A stretch of DNA of 64,000 nucleotides from positions 715,561-779,560 of the forward strand of contig NZ_LMKK01000002.1 in NCBI RefSeq assembly GCF_001421485.1, in the 5' to 3' direction. Shown here one piece after another: positions 15,587 to 23,132 of this stretch. The notes under the pieces were generated by a model that was not told where the DNA came from, did not search any database, and saw nothing but the letters and a program-made list of their open reading frames with translations. The DNA comes from Agreia sp. Leaf210. GTDB lineage: Bacteria; Actinomycetota; Actinomycetes; Actinomycetales; Microbacteriaceae. Made by a program: the position numbers and the translations under genes. Position 1 is the first letter of the stretch; each line of letters starts with the position of its first letter.

Positions 15587-16432
15587 CTATTCTGCGACAG
15601 AGAGCGACGGTGGCAGAAGCACCTCGACGCCGTTCTCGCGAAGCGCCTCGCCGAGCCCCGCCGGCGGGGCGGCGTCTGTGACCAGATAGTCGACGCTGGC
15701 CAGATCGGCCACCTGCGCGAAGAGTCGACGATCGAACTTCGTGGAGTCGGCGAGGATGGCGACCTTCGTGGCGCGGGAGATCATCTCGCTCATCATGAGA
15801 GCCTCGGCCAGATTGCTCGTGGAGAACCCGCTCTCGGCAGACACCGCGCCCACCGAGATGAGGGCGAGATCGCAGTGAAGGTCGAGGTCGTTCCCCGAAT
15901 CCGAGAACTGGAACCCGATCGGGCCGATCGTGGCCTGCCCGCTCAGCCTCACGGCTCCGCCGAACACATAGAGGTCTCGGCACACCTTGGGAGAGATCTC
16001 GGTCGGAATACGCAGATTGTTGGTCGCGATCGTCAGCTCGCGGTGGTCTTCGAGATGCCTCACCACCGAGAGCGTCGTCGTTCCGGCGTTGATCATGACG
16101 ACCGAGCCGTTCTCGACGAGGCCGGCAGCCACGGCTCCGATCTTCTCCTTCGCCGACCGTTGCAGCCGAAGCCGCACATCGAGCTTCTTCTCGGTCGACG
16201 GCATCACCGCGATACTCACGGCCCCGCCGTGCGTTCGCACGAGAAATCCGTCAGCGTCGAGCTGATCGAGATCTCTCCGGATCGTATCGGCCGAGACGCC
16301 GAATCGGGAGGCCAACGCAGACACCGTGACCTCGCCCACCTCGGTGACGTACGCGGCGAGATCCGCCTTGCGTCCGGCCGGCAGCCGAAGAGGTTGATCG
16401 TCGCCGTCTGGGGAATAGGAGGAGTCGGCCAC
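15587..16432 (-). CDS. DeoR/GlpR family repressor of the adjacent sugar operon
   Basis: A 281-aa regulator with an N-terminal winged helix (VTVSALASRFGVSADTIRRD, then the RTHGGA hinge) and a C-terminal sugar-phosphate isomerase-like sensor domain (INAGTTTLSV, LADSTKF). The start is uncertain. The open frame reaches a TTG at 16534, but those first 34 residues look non-coding, so I take the GTG at 16432, which gives a normal length. It is divergent from the binding-protein gene. The shared 203-base gap contains an inverted repeat over the operon promoter, the likely operator. The effector is probably a phosphorylated sugar. Confidence 0.85.
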   Translation of the reverse strand: MADSSYSPDGDDQPLRLPAGRKADLAAYVTEVGEVTVSALASRFGVSADTIRRDLDQLDADGFLVRTHGGAVSIAVMPSTEKKLDVRLRLQRSAKEKIGAVAAGLVENGSVVMINAGTTTLSVVRHLEDHRELTIATNNLRIPTEISPKVCRDLYVFGGAVRLSGQATIGPIGFQFSDSGNDLDLHCDLALISVGAVSAESGFSTSNLAEALMMSEMISRATKVAILADSTKFDRRLFAQVADLASVDYLVTDAAPPAGLGEALRENGVEVLLPPSLSVAE

Positions 16433-16523
16433 GTCTGATTTGTAGCAGAACACCGCAGAAATCTGCAAGCCGCTGCCCGACGGCGAGACATTTGTGCTTA
16501 GCGCTATCAGAATCCCGCACAAG

Positions 16524-16551
16524 AACGCAATCAAATGCGGTTACTTGCGTT
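16524..16551. promoter_or_regulatory. Inverted repeat AACGCAA-N14-TTGCGTT, probable DeoR operator
   Basis: Perfect 7-base arms at 16524-16530 and 16545-16551. The right arm covers the -35 box of the sugar operon promoter, as expected of a repressor site. A direct repeat of GCGCA at 16586-16590 and 16596-16600 could be a second contact. Confidence 0.5.
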
Positions 16552-16573
16552 AAACCCAGCATAGGACTACTGT
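16545..16573 (+). promoter_or_regulatory. Promoter of the sugar uptake operon
   Basis: TTGCGT at 16545-16550 and TACTGT at 16568-16573 are spaced by 17 bases and lie 63 bases before the ATG. The same two hexamers and spacing occur upstream of the LacI gene at 50622-50650. Confidence 0.55.
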
Positions 16574-16635
16574 CACAACGATAAGGCGCACAAAAGCGCA
16601 CTCAACAGCACGATCCCGCATCTCATAGGAGAGAC

Positions 16636-17925
16636 ATGAGCAAAGAAGCTCGTTTTAGAAGAGGCGTCACCACAGCCGTGGCCGCCGCCGCGGCCCTCAC
16701 CCTCATCACCGGCTGCTCGTCCGGCGCCGGAAGCGACGCCTCCACCTCCGGCGGCGATGTCACCATCGAGCTCGCCCAGTGGTGGGAACCCGAGCTGCCC
16801 GACGGCGCGCTGCGCACGCTGATGGACACCTTCGAGTCGGAGAACCCTGGCATCAAGGTCAAGCTCCTCAGCGGCCCCTATGCCTCGACGAAAGAACAGC
16901 TCTTCGCCGGTGCGGCGGCGGGCACGATGTCCGACGTCGTCGGCCTCGACGGCGCATGGGTCAGCGACTTCGCCAAGCAGGGCGCACTCGCCGACCTCAG
17001 CACCCTGATGAAAGACGCCAAGTACGACGACAGCGAACTCGCCAGCACCATCAAGGTCGACGGCAAGACCCAGATGATCCCGGTGGTCAACTTCGTCTAC
17101 CCGCTCTTCACGAACGACGATCTGCTGGCGAAGGCCGGCATCACCACGCCACCGTCGACCCGCACCGAATTCGAGACCGCGGCGAAAGCCGTGACGGCGC
17201 TCGGCGACAACACGAGCGGATGGGTCTTGCCGCTCTCGAGCGAGGCGCCCAACGGCATCCAGAACGACGTCATGTCGTGGGTCTGGTCGTCGGGCGGAAC
17301 CATGCTGGACGACGGCAAGCCCGACGTGACCAACAAAGACGTCACCGGAGCCGTGAAGTACATCAAGGATCTGAACGACGCCGGAGTCATCGCACCCGGA
17401 TCGGCCACGATGAAGGAACAGGACAAGGTCGAGGAGTTCACCAACGGTCGCGTCGGCATGATGATCGACTCTCTGTCGCACATCGACCTGATCCGCACGT
17501 CGAACCCCGACCTCAAGTTCAGCATCTCCGCCATTCCCGCGAAAGACGGCTTCACCGGCGAACGCGGCATCCCCTACGCGTCGTGGGGTGTGGGCGTGTC
17601 CGCCAGCAGCAAGCACCCGGCGGAGTCGTGGAAGCTCGTGCAGTTCCTCATGAACGAGAAGACGAACTCCGAGCTGTCGACCCTCGCGAACGCCTTCCCC
17701 GGCAACACGAAGAGCGTGCCCGACTTCACGTCGAGCGACCCGCTGTTCAAGCAGGCCTTCGACATCTACTCCGAGGGCAAGCCCGCCAACGAGTTCGTCG
17801 GACTGCCCGTCGCGGAGCAGCTGATGCGTCTCTTCGACGAGCAGCTGCAGGCGATTCTGCAGGGAGACGAGTCGGTCGACGACGGCCTCAAGAAGGCTCA
17901 GGATGCGTGGGTCGGGGAGTTCTAG
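16636..17925 (+). CDS. Sugar ABC transporter substrate-binding lipoprotein
   Basis: A 429-aa extracellular solute-binding protein of family 1. It has a lipoprotein signal peptide with lipobox LITGC (Cys27), a Ser/Gly-rich linker, then the typical VTIELAQWWEPE start. AGGAG precedes the ATG by six bases. It opens the operon SBP-permease-permease-aldolase-kinase. A large hairpin separates it from the first permease, which should keep its mRNA abundant. No ATPase gene is present, so a shared MsiK-type ATPase encoded elsewhere is likely. The ligand is a sugar or polyol that I cannot name. Confidence 0.92.
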   Translation: MSKEARFRRGVTTAVAAAAALTLITGCSSGAGSDASTSGGDVTIELAQWWEPELPDGALRTLMDTFESENPGIKVKLLSGPYASTKEQLFAGAAAGTMSDVVGLDGAWVSDFAKQGALADLSTLMKDAKYDDSELASTIKVDGKTQMIPVVNFVYPLFTNDDLLAKAGITTPPSTRTEFETAAKAVTALGDNTSGWVLPLSSEAPNGIQNDVMSWVWSSGGTMLDDGKPDVTNKDVTGAVKYIKDLNDAGVIAPGSATMKEQDKVEEFTNGRVGMMIDSLSHIDLIRTSNPDLKFSISAIPAKDGFTGERGIPYASWGVGVSASSKHPAESWKLVQFLMNEKTNSELSTLANAFPGNTKSVPDFTSSDPLFKQAFDIYSEGKPANEFVGLPVAEQLMRLFDEQLQAILQGDESVDDGLKKAQDAWVGEF

Positions 17926-17957
17926 CCTCCCCGCTTCACAACCACCCGTCGATTGAC

Positions 17958-18003
17958 GGCCGCGCCGCGGACCCCTCTTAGAGGGAGACCCCGCGGCGCG
18001 GCC
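17958..18003 (+). terminator. Two-tier hairpin after the binding-protein gene
   Basis: A perfect 13-base stem (17958-17970 with 17991-18003) encloses a second palindrome, CCCTCT-T-AGAGGG (17973-17985). It starts 32 bases after the stop codon. No T-run follows, so it more likely protects the upstream mRNA and reduces read-through than ends transcription. Confidence 0.75.
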
Positions 18004-18027
18004 ACCCCTCACAGAAAGGCTTCTGCA

Positions 18028-18963
18028 GTGGCCTCGACCAACACCGTCGTCAGACCTGGCAGCACGAAGAGCCGCACCTCCGGGTGGGCCCCCACCGCAC
18101 GCAAGCTGACCCCCTACGCATTCCTCTCGCCGACCGTCATCGTGATGCTCGTGCTCATGCTCATTCCGGTGATCATGGTCATCGGGTACTCGTTCATGGA
18201 CAACGTGATCACGAACAAGAACCCAGTGTTCGTCGGTATCGACAACTACGTCGAGGTGCTGAGCGACCCTGTCTTCCGCACCGCGACCGGCAACACCCTC
18301 TTCTTCACGCTGGTCAGCGTCGCAGCGCACCTGCTGCTGGGTCTCGGCTTCGCCATGCTGCTGAACTCGCCGCTCGTCGGCAACGTCACCAAGGCGCTCT
18401 TCCGAGTCGTCTACATCTTGCCGTGGCTGTTCACGGTGGCCATCATCGCGGTGCTCTGGCGCCTGATGCTGAACCCGAATGGGGTCGTCAACTACATCCT
18501 CATCTCCCTCGGCCTGACCGACAAGGGCATCGAGTGGCTGTCGTCTCCCGACACAGCGCTGCTCGCCGTGACGTTCATCAACATCTGGGCCGGCTACTCG
18601 TTCTACATGGTCACCCTGCTGGCCGGCCTGCAGGGCGTGCCCGCAGATCTGTACGAGGCGGCCCGGGTCGACGGCGCATCCGCATTTCAGCGTTTCTGGA
18701 ACGTGACCCTGCCGCAGCTCAAACCGATCATCATCAGCATGAGCGTGCTCGACATCATCTGGACCTCGCAGCAGTTCGCCCTCATCTGGATGACCACCGG
18801 CGGAGGCCCCGTGAACGTCACGGAGATGCTCAGCACCTACACCTACAAGCTCGCCTTCAGCCGCTACGAGTTCTCCGTCGCCTCCGCGAGCGCCGTGCTC
18901 ATCCTTCTCCTCACCATGGTGCTCGCGTTCTTCTACGTGCGTCACCAGAAAGCGCGTGACTGA
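18028..18963 (+). CDS. Sugar ABC transporter permease (MalF type)
   Basis: A 311-aa inner-membrane permease with six predicted helices and the EAA loop (DLYEAARVDGASAFQRFWNV) that docks the ATPase. I take the GTG at 18028, preceded by AGAAAGG eight bases upstream; the in-frame ATG at 17953 would fall inside the hairpin and add 25 arginine-rich residues. The stop overlaps the region of the next start. It pairs with the following permease. Confidence 0.9.
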   Translation: MASTNTVVRPGSTKSRTSGWAPTARKLTPYAFLSPTVIVMLVLMLIPVIMVIGYSFMDNVITNKNPVFVGIDNYVEVLSDPVFRTATGNTLFFTLVSVAAHLLLGLGFAMLLNSPLVGNVTKALFRVVYILPWLFTVAIIAVLWRLMLNPNGVVNYILISLGLTDKGIEWLSSPDTALLAVTFINIWAGYSFYMVTLLAGLQGVPADLYEAARVDGASAFQRFWNVTLPQLKPIIISMSVLDIIWTSQQFALIWMTTGGGPVNVTEMLSTYTYKLAFSRYEFSVASASAVLILLLTMVLAFFYVRHQKARD

Positions 18964-18964
18964 C

Positions 18965-19882
18965 ATGACGACATTCGCCCAGAAACAGAGCCCCGCCGTT
19001 CGAACGACACCGGATGGCGCACGACGCTCGCCCGCGCAGAAGCCGCGGCGCCGGCCGAAGGATCGACTCGCGAAAGTCGTCATCATCCTGCTGCTGCTGA
19101 CCGGCGCGGCGTTCGCCGCCTTCCCGATCATCTGGATGGCCTCGAGCTCGTTCAAGCCGAACACCGAGATCTTCGCCTACCCGCCGCAGCTGATCACCTC
19201 GAACTTCTCGTTCGACGCGTACATCACGATCCTCACCGATCCCACGAAGGTGCGCTTCTTCATCAACAGCTACGTCGTGTCGCTGGCCGTCACGGCACTC
19301 ACCCTGCTCGTGGCCATCCTCGCCTCGTACGCATTCAGCCGATACGAGTTCAAGGGCAAGCGCCCGATCAACATGATCATCGTGAGCATCCAGGCCGTTC
19401 CGCCCATCACGCTGCTGATCCCGTTCTTCGGCCTCATGGTGGTGCTCGGTCTCTACAACACCTATCAGGGCCTGATCCTCACCTATCTGGTGTTCACGCT
19501 TCCCTACGCGATCATCATGATGACCGGCTACTTCAACACTCTGCCGAAGGAGCTCGACGAGGCGGCCCGCATGGACGGGGCCGGACCGCTCACCGTGCTC
19601 TGGCGCATCCTCGTGCCGATCTCGATTCCCGGCATCGTCTCTGTCGGTGTCTACACGTTCATGATCGCGTGGAACGAGTATCTGTTCGCCCTCACTCTGA
19701 CCCGCACCGAGGACATGCGCACGGTGCCCATCGGCATCCAGCTGCTCATGGGCCAGAACTCCTACGAGTGGAACGAAATGATGGCGATGAGCATCCTCGG
19801 CTGCATCCCCGTGCTCATTCTCTTCCTCTTCTTCCAGCGCTACTTCATCGGCGGCATGACCGCCGGCGCCGTCAAGAGTTGA
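18965..19882 (+). CDS. Sugar ABC transporter permease (MalG type)
   Basis: A 305-aa second permease with a cytoplasmic basic N-terminus, six helices and the EAA loop (ELDEAARMDGAGPLTVLWRI). It ends in the family GGMTAGAVKS-type tail. The ATG at 18965 lies directly after the upstream stop; an overlapping GTG at 18956 is the alternative start. The SBP and two permeases form one importer lacking a local ATPase gene. Confidence 0.9.
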   Translation: MTTFAQKQSPAVRTTPDGARRSPAQKPRRRPKDRLAKVVIILLLLTGAAFAAFPIIWMASSSFKPNTEIFAYPPQLITSNFSFDAYITILTDPTKVRFFINSYVVSLAVTALTLLVAILASYAFSRYEFKGKRPINMIIVSIQAVPPITLLIPFFGLMVVLGLYNTYQGLILTYLVFTLPYAIIMMTGYFNTLPKELDEAARMDGAGPLTVLWRILVPISIPGIVSVGVYTFMIAWNEYLFALTLTRTEDMRTVPIGIQLLMGQNSYEWNEMMAMSILGCIPVLILFLFFQRYFIGGMTAGAVKS

Positions 19883-19931
19883 CCCCCTTCTTTCCGACCT
19901 TCCGCACCACAACACAAGGAGAAAACCCATA

Positions 19932-20792
19932 ATGCTCGTTTCCGGAAAAGACCTTCTCGACGTCGCCAACGCGAACAACTTCGCGGTGCCGGCCTTCAAC
20001 GTCAGCGACTACGCCATGATGAACGGCCTCTTCGAGATCAGCGAAGAGAAGCAGTCGCCGCTGCTCATCGCCATCCACCCCGACGAGTTGAGCCACATCG
20101 GCACCGACGTGCTGCACGCGATCATCGCTCGGGCGAACCGCTCGAGCGTTCCGGTGACCATCCACCTCGACCACGGCGCGAGCTACGAGCAGGTGCTGCT
20201 CGCGATCCAGAGCGGCTTCACCTCGGTGATGATCGACGGCTCGATGCTGCCGTTCGACGAGAACATCGCCATCACGAAGCGGGTCGTCGACACCGCACAC
20301 GCCGTGGGGGTCTCGGTCGAGGGAGAACTCGGCACCATCGGCAAGACAGACAACGAGGCCGAAGACGGGGCCGCATCCATCATCTACACCGAGCCCGACG
20401 AGGCCGTGACGTTCGTCGAGGCCACCGGAGTCGACAGCCTGGCCATCGCCATCGGCACCAGCCACGGCATCTACCCGGCGAGCATGAAGCCCGAACTCAA
20501 GCTCGAGCTGCTCAAGCGCATCAAGGCGAAGGTCAACATCCCCCTCGTTCTGCACGGCGGATCGAACAACCCCGACAACGAGATCGGCGAGTCCGTGAAG
20601 CTCGGAGTCAACAAGATCAACATCTCATCCGACATCAAGGCGAGTTACCACAACAAGATGCGCGAGGTGCTGGCCGACGCGAGCGTGCGCGAGCCGAACA
20701 CCATTCAGCCCCCGTCGATCGCCGCCATGAAAGAGACCGCCGCCCAGAAGATCGATCTGTTCGGCGCGGCCGGAAAGGCCACACTGTACTGA
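19932..20792 (+). CDS. Class II ketose-bisphosphate aldolase
   Basis: A 286-aa zinc aldolase of the fructose/tagatose-bisphosphate family (FbaA, GatY, KbaY group) that splits a ketose 1,6-bisphosphate into triose phosphates. Catalytic and zinc residues are visible as His78-Leu-Asp80-His81, GTSHG and LVLHGGSN, with the phosphate loop NKINISSDIK. AAGGAG precedes the ATG at 19932. Followed by a sugar kinase, it would act on the kinase product. Whether the ketose is fructose, tagatose or another cannot be decided from the sequence. Confidence 0.9.
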   Translation: MLVSGKDLLDVANANNFAVPAFNVSDYAMMNGLFEISEEKQSPLLIAIHPDELSHIGTDVLHAIIARANRSSVPVTIHLDHGASYEQVLLAIQSGFTSVMIDGSMLPFDENIAITKRVVDTAHAVGVSVEGELGTIGKTDNEAEDGAASIIYTEPDEAVTFVEATGVDSLAIAIGTSHGIYPASMKPELKLELLKRIKAKVNIPLVLHGGSNNPDNEIGESVKLGVNKINISSDIKASYHNKMREVLADASVREPNTIQPPSIAAMKETAAQKIDLFGAAGKATLY

Positions 20793-20832
20793 TCGACGAC
20801 CCCACCCGTCAGCCAAGGAATGCGACGACACG

Positions 20833-22038
20833 ATGAATGAGAAGCTCGTACTGGGCCTCGGCGGAACCGTGGACTACGAGATCGTCTGGGACTCTCGGGT
20901 GATCGACGACCTGGTCATCGAGTACGCCATCCAGCCCTCCGAGCTCTCTCGCCTCATCGCGATCCGCAGCGAACGCGATCTGGTGATCGCCCTGCTGGCA
21001 TTCGTGAAAGACGGTGCGGGAGGAGAGAGATTCGTCTCCTACTCCCGCATCGTCGAGCAGTTCGCCGCCCGTTTCGACAAACGCATCACCCTCGGCGGAA
21101 CGGGCGTGCGGGCGGCCTACGCGATGGAGGCCGTGGGAGTCACGTGCACGCTGCACCTCGTCAGCATCGACGACAACGTGCGCAGACTCCTCCCCCGCGG
21201 TTCGGCATACATCTCGAGCGCCGAGCGCGACACGCTCGACCCCCACCTCATCGTGCAGTTCGTCGAGGGCAGCCGCGTGCGCATCGGCGAGCTCGAACTC
21301 CGCTCACCCCACGCGAACCGCGTGATCTTCGCCAACGATCCTCCGAATGCCGAGCTCGTGCTCAGCGCCGATCTCGGGGCGAGCCTCGAACGGGCCGAGC
21401 TGTTCATGATCTCGGGGTTCAACAGCATGCAGAGCGAGGAGTCGCTGGTGCGGCGGCTCGACGACATGCGTCGACACTTGACCCGGCTGCCGGCCGACGC
21501 GCTGGTGTTCTACGAAGACTCCGGCTTCCACGTGCCCGCGCTCAGTCGTCATGTGCGCGAGGCCCTGCTCGATCGCATCGACGTCTACAGCATGAACGAA
21601 GACGAGATGCAGGCCTATGTCGGCAGGCCTCTCGACCTGCTCGACGTCGACGTGATGGCTGCGGCGCTCGGCGAACTCCACGAGCTCATTCCCGCCGCTG
21701 TGCTGGTCGTGCACACGAAGTTCTGGTCGCTCGCGCTGGGCGAGCGCGCCGCCGACTACGAGGATGCGCTTCGCGGTGCGATCCAGATGGCCAGCACACG
21801 CTATGTGCGCGGCGACGGCTTCACCGAGCGCAACTACGAGCAGACGGGACTCCTGCCGGTCAATCCGTTGGGCGCCGACTTCGCCCTCGGCATCCAGGCA
21901 CGGCTCGGAGCCGAGGTCTGCTGTGTGCCCGCTTTTCTGCTCACGGTCGCGCGGCCCACCACCATCGGCCTGGGCGACACGTTCGTCGGCGGCTTCATCG
22001 CGGCGATCGCCCGCCGCGCCCAGCCCCCCAGCACCTAG
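20833..22038 (+). CDS. ADP-dependent phosphofructokinase/glucokinase family kinase
   Basis: A 401-aa ribokinase-fold kinase resembling the ADP-dependent PFK/glucokinase family, which uses ADP rather than ATP as donor and is best known from archaea. Matching features are length, an N-terminal GLGGTVDYEI strand, TLGGTGVRAAYAM, the FMISGFNSM segment, Asn255-Glu-Asp-Glu258 (NExE motif) and GLGDTFVGG with catalytic Asp382. An ordinary PfkB protein would be about 300 aa with DTTGAGD. It follows the class II aldolase by 40 bases, suggesting a ketose-6-phosphate 1-kinase. Its stop TAG overlaps the opposite-strand stop at 22035. Confidence 0.8.
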   Translation: MNEKLVLGLGGTVDYEIVWDSRVIDDLVIEYAIQPSELSRLIAIRSERDLVIALLAFVKDGAGGERFVSYSRIVEQFAARFDKRITLGGTGVRAAYAMEAVGVTCTLHLVSIDDNVRRLLPRGSAYISSAERDTLDPHLIVQFVEGSRVRIGELELRSPHANRVIFANDPPNAELVLSADLGASLERAELFMISGFNSMQSEESLVRRLDDMRRHLTRLPADALVFYEDSGFHVPALSRHVREALLDRIDVYSMNEDEMQAYVGRPLDLLDVDVMAAALGELHELIPAAVLVVHTKFWSLALGERAADYEDALRGAIQMASTRYVRGDGFTERNYEQTGLLPVNPLGADFALGIQARLGAEVCCVPAFLLTVARPTTIGLGDTFVGGFIAAIARRAQPPST

Positions 22039-23132
22039 CCGCGCAGCGCCTCGAGCACCTTCACGCGCGCACCTGTACGCAGCAGCGAGTTGGCGTAGAT
22101 CTTCGATCCGAAGAGCACGACCAGCACGGTCGTCGCGAGAATGACCACGAGCGACAGCAGCGGCTCCCACCACTCGGCCGTTCCCAGATAGATGCGCATA
22201 GGCATGCCGATCGGGGCCGAGAACGGCACGTACGACATGATCGTGAGCACCAGATCGTTGTCCCACGCGAACACGATCAAGAAGTACGGGATCATCACGA
22301 GCATCATCACCGGCGTGGTCACCGATCCGATGTCCTCCTGACGCGAGACCAGCGCCGCGGCCGACGCGAACATCGCGGCCAGCAGCACGAAGCCCACGGC
22401 GAAGAACACCACGAACCAGACGATCGCCGACCCCAGGTCGCCGAGCAGCGCATCCTGCCCGGTGACCATCAGCCCCACGATGGCCGCCGCGGCGATCAGC
22501 ACGATCTGACCGAACGCGAGGATCGTGTTGCCGATCACTTTGCCCGCCAGCAGCGCGCGAGCCGAGATGGCCGACATCAGGATCTCGACCACCCGGGTCG
22601 ACTTCTCTTCGACGACGCTCTGCGCGATGGTCGTTCCGAACAGGGTCGCGGCCATGAAGAACACGATTCCGAAGCCGAGCCCCACGAGGTAGGCGAGCCC
22701 GGAGTTCTGGTCGGCAGGCTCGAGCAGCGTGACCTCGGGGCTGGCGCTGAGCAGTTGAACGAGGTCGCCGGGCGCCTCGTCGAGGGCCAGAACCCGGATG
22801 CCCGTGGGCCCGTCGCCCGGAACGATCGCGGCGGCGACATCCCCGTCGCGCACGAGCTGCTCGGCGTCGGCGACGCTGCCAGCCTCCGTGATCTCGAGCG
22901 ACGGCACCTGCGCGAACGGTCGGGAGTCGCCGACCACGGCCACGCGGGTCGTCTCGTTCGAGGCCGATGCGCCGACGATGCTGCCGGCGACGATCGAGGC
23001 GATGACCGCGAGCAGCAGGATCACGGACGAGATGATGAAGGCCTTGCTGCGCAGGCGCATCCGCACCTCGCGGTCGGCGACGAGCGCGGCGCTCTGAGCG
23101 AAGGTGTTGGCTCTCGTGTCGGCGATGATCAT
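22035..23132 (-). CDS. NatB-like ABC-2 type exporter permease
   Basis: A 365-aa membrane protein: one N-terminal helix, a roughly 130-residue extracellular domain, then five or six helices, the layout of NatB/ABC2_membrane_3 proteins. A conserved TIAQSVVEEKSTRVVEIL coupling segment lies in the middle. The start overlaps the ATPase gene by 4 bases (23129-23132). With that ATPase it probably exports sodium, a drug or a peptide; the substrate is not evident. Its stop codon shares CTAG with the convergent kinase gene. Confidence 0.87.
   Translation of the reverse strand: MIIADTRANTFAQSAALVADREVRMRLRSKAFIISSVILLLAVIASIVAGSIVGASASNETTRVAVVGDSRPFAQVPSLEITEAGSVADAEQLVRDGDVAAAIVPGDGPTGIRVLALDEAPGDLVQLLSASPEVTLLEPADQNSGLAYLVGLGFGIVFFMAATLFGTTIAQSVVEEKSTRVVEILMSAISARALLAGKVIGNTILAFGQIVLIAAAAIVGLMVTGQDALLGDLGSAIVWFVVFFAVGFVLLAAMFASAAALVSRQEDIGSVTTPVMMLVMIPYFLIVFAWDNDLVLTIMSYVPFSAPIGMPMRIYLGTAEWWEPLLSLVVILATTVLVVLFGSKIYANSLLRTGARVKVLEALRG

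Follow-up and report, generated by a model that had tools for sequence, protein, structure and literature searches.

The operon in the window

The window, that is, the whole 64,000-nucleotide stretch of Agreia sp. Leaf210 DNA analysed here, contains a divergent DeoR regulator gene followed by genes for an ABC transporter sugar-binding protein (SBP), two permeases, a class II aldolase and a kinase, in this order. The features are:

15587..16534, minus strand: DeoR-family repressor, divergent (HTH_DeoR, 1.5e-15 at 55-108; DeoRC, 4.5e-38)
16516..16635, no strand assigned: upstream control region and candidate operator, with a 19-nt direct repeat in two copies and GCA-phased repeats
16636..17925, plus strand: ABC transporter sugar-binding protein (SBP_bac_1, 4.4e-34)
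17953..18963, plus strand: ABC permease 1 (BPD_transp_1, 2.4e-19)
18956..19882, plus strand: ABC permease 2 (BPD_transp_1, 1.8e-21)
19932..20792, plus strand: class II ketose(-bis)phosphate aldolase family protein, 286 aa (PF01116, 2.7e-92)
20833..22038, plus strand: ADP-type sugar kinase (PF04587), 401 aa, ATG to stop, identified by Pfam, PDB profile and predicted fold

The DeoR open reading frame as listed starts at a TTG codon, and alignments with distant relatives mostly omit its first part; the true start may lie further in. The two copies of the direct repeat (16516-16534 and 16587-16605) are 84% identical, and similar strings were recognised by eye 5' of the SBP genes at certain related loci, such as L022, L026 and L077. 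The repeats before the SBP gene are a candidate DeoR operator. No match to the sigma-70 consensus was found in 16400-22400. At the other end, the kinase reading frame and the convergent next gene share four bases (22035-22038), and the kinase is thus the last gene of the operon. The six operon genes include neither a second kinase nor a PTS gene. The operon also has no isomerase, and neither the ManA-like gene nor the DUF4432 gene found beside related operons (see below); a search of the genome with the ManA-like protein of one relative, run without a positive control, gave no match. Elsewhere the genome encodes a class I phosphomannose isomerase. A PfkA and another class II aldolase are likewise encoded in the genome, and the aldolase-kinase pair of the window thus need not serve glycolysis.

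The ADP-dependent kinase family, whose members use ADP in place of ATP as phosphate donor, is best known from heat-loving archaea. An earlier note had proposed a member of this family in an actinobacterial sugar operon, arranged as in aldolase-kinase pairs, and much of that description stands. The aldolase gene lies directly 5' of the kinase gene, the reading frame has exactly the extent proposed, the tetrapeptide Asn-Glu-Asp-Glu occupies residues 255-258, and GLGDTFVGG is present at residues 379-387, its first four residues being the ADP-type donor signature. The note had also named a profile search against PF04587 as a check, with a match to PfkB only as the contrary outcome. In the Pfam scan PF04587 matches residues 4-261 with E = 2.4e-26 (92.9 bits, cut-off 27), while PfkB comes second on the same protein (E = 2.5e-8, 34.1 bits, cut-off 25.8). 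Given this difference in score, and a Leu as the X of GXGD, the kinase is not placed with the ATP-type ribokinases of PfkB. Membership of PF04587 is firm, and this is the sole PF04587 match in the genome. The NCBIfam models for ADP-glucokinase give 56.8 bits against a cut-off of 387 and 17.6 against 554; as the equivalog cut-off for ADP-dependent glucokinase is far from reached, the kinase is a divergent member of the family. A chance reading frame is excluded, since relatives are encoded at 61 loci of other genomes.

Related loci and distribution

The scan that yielded these 61 loci detects close relatives only, and the kinases of the 36 loci aligned with the window (alignment A1) are 41-93% identical. 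The loci belong to three phyla, coming from Actinobacteria, three Chloroflexota and a Treponema (L080); the operon is present in Agreia, Microbacterium and Arthrobacter strains. Genes around the loci were predicted with a small codon-model script. The aldolase gene lies directly 5' of the kinase gene in 60 of the 61, the order SBP-permease-permease-aldolase-kinase is found in 57, and 54 have the divergent DeoR gene in addition; the three Chloroflexota loci show the full order without DeoR. Among the loci lacking the full order, contig ends truncate two (L033 and L035), and L066 has a partial aldolase gene, with no match to the transporter genes in the available DNA. In Treponema the kinase is accompanied by a different aldolase (39% identity, lacking the HPDE motif described below) and a downstream DeoR-type gene (28%).

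Beyond flanks common to close relatives, the recurrent additions recognised were a ManA-like protein and DUF4432. The ManA-like gene lies just 3' of the kinase gene in 35 of the 61 loci, often overlapping its stop codon, and adjoins DeoR in three more. The two ManA-like proteins scanned score 63.5 and 56.2 bits, with a manA cut-off of 116.2. DUF4432 adjoins the kinase in three loci. Together these additions suggest aldose/ketose interconversion, and no particular sugar; likewise, neither the neighbours of the 61 loci nor the operons near FGGY kinases (see below) indicated the identity of the sugar.

Of 199 genomes sampled from the family Microbacteriaceae, 18 gave kinase matches, and of 396 from the order 34 did so (E = 1e-10, counting the own genome); the aldolase (E = 1e-60) was found in 19 and 38, respectively. 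Both genes occur together in 32 genomes of the order sample, the kinase alone in two, the aldolase alone in six and neither in 356, a co-occurrence with a Fisher p of 1e-38, uncorrected for shared descent. The kinase-only genomes are G875, whose match covers 79 residues only, and G646, whose match begins at base 369 of its contig. A phylum-wide sample (n = 396, profile A1, four candidates scored per genome) returned the own genome and one weak match of 53 residues, and the distribution of the kinase gene is thus patchy. Plasmid records gave no kinase match at 1e-5.

Aldolase copies of 66-76% identity also occur apart from this kinase and its transporter genes (L137:6337-7194, L146:3793-4656, and L147:7183-8043). 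The first of these loci retains a DeoR gene, and PTS genes and another aldolase gene lie nearby.

Trees of the kinase and the aldolase (59 rows each, leaving out L035, L066, and L076) both group the Agreia sequences and group the Chloroflexota. In a Rathayibacter locus (L077, 7126-9176) the aldolase is 89% identical to that of the window and sits with Agreia, while the kinase reaches 56% identity and is placed elsewhere; the positions of L046, L050 and L078 also differ between the two trees. The kinase either evolves faster than the aldolase or undergoes replacement inside the operon.

Fold, substrate pocket and donor site

A profile of 37 kinase sequences, run against the PDB, matched at E < 0.01 only entries of ADP-dependent glucokinases (ADP-GK) and phosphofructokinases (ADP-PFK), these being archaeal, ancestral and mouse enzymes (best E = 5.2e-16), and aligned the P. 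furiosus ADP-GK over kinase residues 6-384. Adenosine kinases appeared at E = 0.05 or worse, over 36-54 C-terminal residues. An AlphaFold2 model of the kinase has a mean pLDDT of 93.7. In VIA-align, ADP-dependent kinases fill the best 17 of 50 rows, with Z from 36.8 to 27.5 and 347-397 residues aligned, headed by 1ua4 (Z 36.8, rmsd 3.2, 387 aligned), and the first row outside the family is of PfkB/adenosine-kinase type (Z 23.6, 276 aligned); in Foldseek, rows 1-22 are ADP-dependent kinases. The predicted fold is ribokinase-like and matches the solved ADP-dependent kinases end to end. Foldseek ranks an ADP-PFK (P. horikoshii) first by E-value, whereas the VIA Z-score ranks an ADP-GK first, and given this disagreement fold rank was not used to choose between the two classes.

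Single residues were mapped from profile alignments of distant proteins (14-20% identity in structural alignments) and counted over the window and all 61 loci:

21025..21027, plus strand: E65, glucose-type, opposite Glu88 of P. furiosus ADP-GK in the alignment (E90 in AncMsPFK), 62/62
21244..21246, plus strand: H138, opposite the His of glucokinase type in the alignment, for which F6P enzymes have N181, 62/62
21319..21321, plus strand: R163, opposite the catalytic Arg in the alignment (R206 in AncMsPFK), 62/62
21595..21606, plus strand: NXXE motif, N255-E258, with N255 and E258 in 62/62
21967..21978, plus strand: GXGD (G379-L380-G381-D382), with the catalytic base and the donor residue of ADP type, 61/61 covered rows

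The lower total for GXGD reflects the kinase of L076, which ends early and lacks the C-terminus. E228 and H294 are, like R163, N255 and E258, invariant in all 62 sequences. E228 is the Glu of the HXE motif, and the glutamates have been named as the essential residues (PMC6028617). The His of HXE is found in none of the 62 kinases, being replaced by Tyr (33), Phe (20) or others, and for this reason we describe the protein as a divergent PF04587 homologue and a putative ADP-dependent enzyme. Compared with the ADP-GKs of Pyrococcus/Thermococcus and mouse (1ua4, 4b8s, and 5ccf), it shares the full-length fold, GXGD, NXXE, the HXE Glu, the catalytic Arg and the glucose-type Glu and His, but is 16-20% identical, about 50 residues shorter and devoid of the HXE His. 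It also differs from ADP-GK in lying in a bacterial ABC transporter-aldolase operon and below the NCBIfam equivalog cut-offs.

For the acceptor, Munoz et al. report that conservation of K179, N181 and R212 is confined to F6P-using enzymes, that these residues matter for F6P, and that E90 is conserved in glucose-using enzymes, the T. litoralis ADP-GK having His at N181 (PMC7948494). In our alignments D136, H138, R163 and D169 of the kinase face K180, N182, R207 and R213 of the ancestral enzyme 5k27, which we equated by motif with the published K179, N181, R206 and R212. The residues that mark F6P use are absent: position 136 is Asp in 55 of 62 sequences and Lys in none, H138 is invariant and D169 is kept in 60 of 62. 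The Glu and His of the glucose site are present, E65 and H138 corresponding to Glu88 and His176 in P. furiosus numbering (counted from the alignment); for Q116 in the sugar site an obvious counterpart is lacking (Thr 90), and Gly/Thr predominate in place of N32/N34. With E65 and H138 invariant, D169 nearly so and no Lys at 136, the pocket appears to be of the free-sugar type.

These residues could also be read as those of a plain ADP-dependent gluco- or mannokinase, which would phosphorylate an aldohexose at C6, leaving isomerisation to the ManA-like protein and the aldolase step to follow a second kinase. The three class-marking residues are all glucokinase-like, the VIA rows at the top, within one Z unit of each other, are ADP-glucokinases, and the frequent ManA-like gene would suit such a route. 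We nevertheless hold it to be rather unlikely, as the ManA-like gene is optional and missing from the window operon, the two ManA-like proteins scanned fall well under the manA cut-off, and the near-constant neighbour is the aldolase gene. Glucose needs no dedicated aldolase.

The aldolase itself comes near the NCBIfam family PRK08185 (396.6 bits, cut-off 405), and its relatives in the PDB are KbaY, FBA and YdjI (6ofu). Two segments set it apart:

20076..20087, plus strand: HPDE motif, aldolase residues 49-52, replacing in alignments the LSEG/GTPG-type Ser segment of bisphosphate aldolases
20691..20699, plus strand: EPN, aldolase residues 254-256, replacing in alignments the D-P-R of bisphosphate aldolases

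H49 is found in 61 of the 62 aldolases, P50 and D51 in 60 and E52 in all. At position 256, where KbaY and Thermus FBA have Arg, none of the 62 has Arg and 56 have Asn. The pair D278 and R280 of Giardia FBPA shows strict conservation, R280 being a substrate-binding residue (PMC6692403); we equated the D-P-R (D-x-R) segment with this pair by motif. The aldolase keeps D80, H178, H208, GGS and the KINISSD segment. With the class II tagatose- and fructose-bisphosphate aldolases KbaY (1gvf) and Thermus FBA (1rv8) it therefore shares the family and the metal-site and DHAP-side residues, but differs in having E-P-N for D-P-R and the HPDE segment. These aldolase residues point the same way as the kinase pocket.

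Taken together, kinase pocket and aldolase residues favour a single phosphorylation of a free sugar over a second phosphorylation of one already phosphorylated. The earlier note had instead supposed that the acceptor is a ketose 6-phosphate (fructose-6-P or tagatose-6-P), and this part of it finds no support, with the F6P-type residues absent and Asn replacing the Arg of D-P-R in the aldolase. Judged from these residues, F6P and T6P are unlikely substrates. The corresponding scheme, an ADP-dependent kinase that converts ketose 6-phosphate into the 1,6-bisphosphate for the aldolase, draws on the presence of ADP-PFK in the family, on the Foldseek E-value ranking and on the placement of the aldolase in a ketose-bisphosphate aldolase family. 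The kinase shares its fold and donor-site motifs with ADP-PFK (1u2x and 6xio), but carries D136, H138 and D169 in place of the K179, N181 and R212 tied to F6P use; the aldolase lacks the Arg usual at the C6 end, and no further kinase or PTS among the six operon genes would supply the 6-phosphate. We consider this scheme improbable.

The phosphate donor can be approached through the second residue of GXGD, which according to Nagata et al. is small in ATP-, Ile/Leu in ADP- and Arg in PPi-dependent ribokinase-fold enzymes (PMC5931981). The motif reads GLGD in the window and in the 60 loci that cover it (61/61 rows), and also in 25 of 25 kinases from further related stretches, whose genomes may overlap with the former (e.g., L170 and L079). 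As a control, the eight PfkB matches of the own genome (E = 1e-10 or better) read GAGD in seven cases and GCGD in one, and never GLGD. Two residues ahead of GLGD lies a Thr, and not the RXGRGD arrangement of PPi enzymes. ADP is thereby supported, indirectly, as the probable donor. A member of the fold family that has switched to ATP or PPi would account for the HXE His lost in all 62 sequences; the kinase sequence is distant from tested members, and a PPi-dependent ribokinase-fold enzyme does exist (PMC5931981). Yet GLGD has neither the small residue of the ATP enzymes nor the RXGRGD of the PPi enzymes, and such a switch seems to us as doubtful as the use of a ketose 6-phosphate. That the protein is no sugar kinase at all, having decayed or taken on a moonlighting role, is scarcely credible, for despite the faster divergence of the kinase (e.g., the 56% versus 89% of Rathayibacter) its catalytic residues persist throughout 61-62 sequences of three phyla.

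A proposed route and related cassettes

We put forward that a free imported sugar is phosphorylated once, with ADP, and then cleaved to DHAP and an aldehyde, a reading of the whole route to which we give a probability of about 0.5. The ABC system would import an unphosphorylated sugar, probably a ketose, or else an aldose that the ManA-like protein of many relatives would turn into a ketose; DUF4432, where present, would presumably interconvert anomers. The kinase would move one phosphate from ADP, releasing AMP, onto a primary hydroxyl, such that the DHAP half would carry the phosphate, which for a ketose means position 1. The class II aldolase would cleave this monophosphate to DHAP and an unphosphorylated aldehyde, and DeoR would keep the operon repressed as long as both the sugar and its phosphate are lacking. 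Here we infer the donor, the free state of the sugar, phosphorylation at C1, the products and the regulation. A glucokinase-type pocket would predict phosphorylation at C6 of an aldose, unlike what a DHAP-forming aldolase needs, and reading the product as a ketose phosphorylated at C1 resolves this clash by assumption. The proposed route resembles those of YdjH-YdjI and IolC-IolJ, in which one kinase and one class II aldolase act on a monophosphate to give DHAP, but the kinases of these systems are ATP-type PfkB proteins.

A second, divergent PF04587 kinase, KIN2, occurs in related operons of five of the 396 genomes of the order:

L138:9881-11143, L139:4132-5358, L140:4390-5625, L156:5942-7195, L163:7614-8831: KIN2 (PF04587 for L138 and L163)
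L138:1089-2507, L139:12536-13984, L140:12835-14280, L156:12387-13826: sulfatase-type gene beside DeoR (Pfam for L138, sequence start only for the others)

The assignment of KIN2 to the family is based on PF04587 (4.1e-13 and 2.7e-13 for L138 and L163, respectively), on a best PDB profile match to P. furiosus ADP-GK (2.5e-6) and on the motifs, with HLE (as HXE), NXXE and GLGD in all five sequences examined. KIN2 is about 25-32% identical, over local stretches, to the kinase of the type found in the window (KIN); a model built from the five sequences has a pLDDT of 42.7. In L138, L139 and L140 the order is SBP-permease-permease-ALD'-ALD-KIN-KIN2-SDR, with a sulfatase-type gene beside DeoR, whereas L156 and L163 have ALD'-KIN2-SDR in an operon lacking KIN, which is encoded elsewhere in both genomes. 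ALD' of L138 carries GPKEG and D-P-R, while ALD carries HPDE and E-P-N. A sulfatase-type gene was seen in four of the five KIN2 operons, the exception being L163, hinting that a sulfated sugar may be the source. Eight further related SBP-permease-permease operons (L152-L155 and L157-L160), with aldolases 49-52% identical, gave no match to KIN or KIN2; in all six inspected, a gene of ~460 aa whose product starts like an FGGY kinase lies near (Pfam for L152 only), as does another class II aldolase gene. In view of these KIN, KIN2 and FGGY-like variants, transporter-aldolase cassettes appear to swap kinase families, the ADP type being among the choices.

From this material we advance, tentatively and as a proposal somewhat more likely to fail than to stand, a hitherto unrecognised bacterial branch of the ADP-dependent kinases that makes ketose 1-phosphates by ADP-dependent phosphorylation at C1. 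Its partner aldolase would have been rebuilt at the C6 end of the substrate (HPDE/EPN), and the cassette would have spread through Actinobacteria and Chloroflexota, the Treponema kinase lying next to another aldolase; a KIN2 lineage in further genomes of the order would be joined by a second aldolase, an SDR and, in most cases, a sulfatase.

ADP-dependent kinases are usually treated as an archaeal and animal peculiarity. Their occurrence in bacteria has been stated (PMC7948494), and one survey reports none in CPR bacteria (PMC7304191). Among the open-access papers that our searches listed, we found no description of a bacterial pathway for them. The present results caution against annotating such kinase genes as phosphofructokinases. 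The compact operon, with its transporter, regulator, aldolase and kinase, makes a role for a bacterial ADP-dependent kinase testable. If the proposal is true, it would define a new activity, an ADP:ketose 1-phosphotransferase, and give ADP-dependent phosphorylation a physiological role in ordinary mesophilic bacteria.
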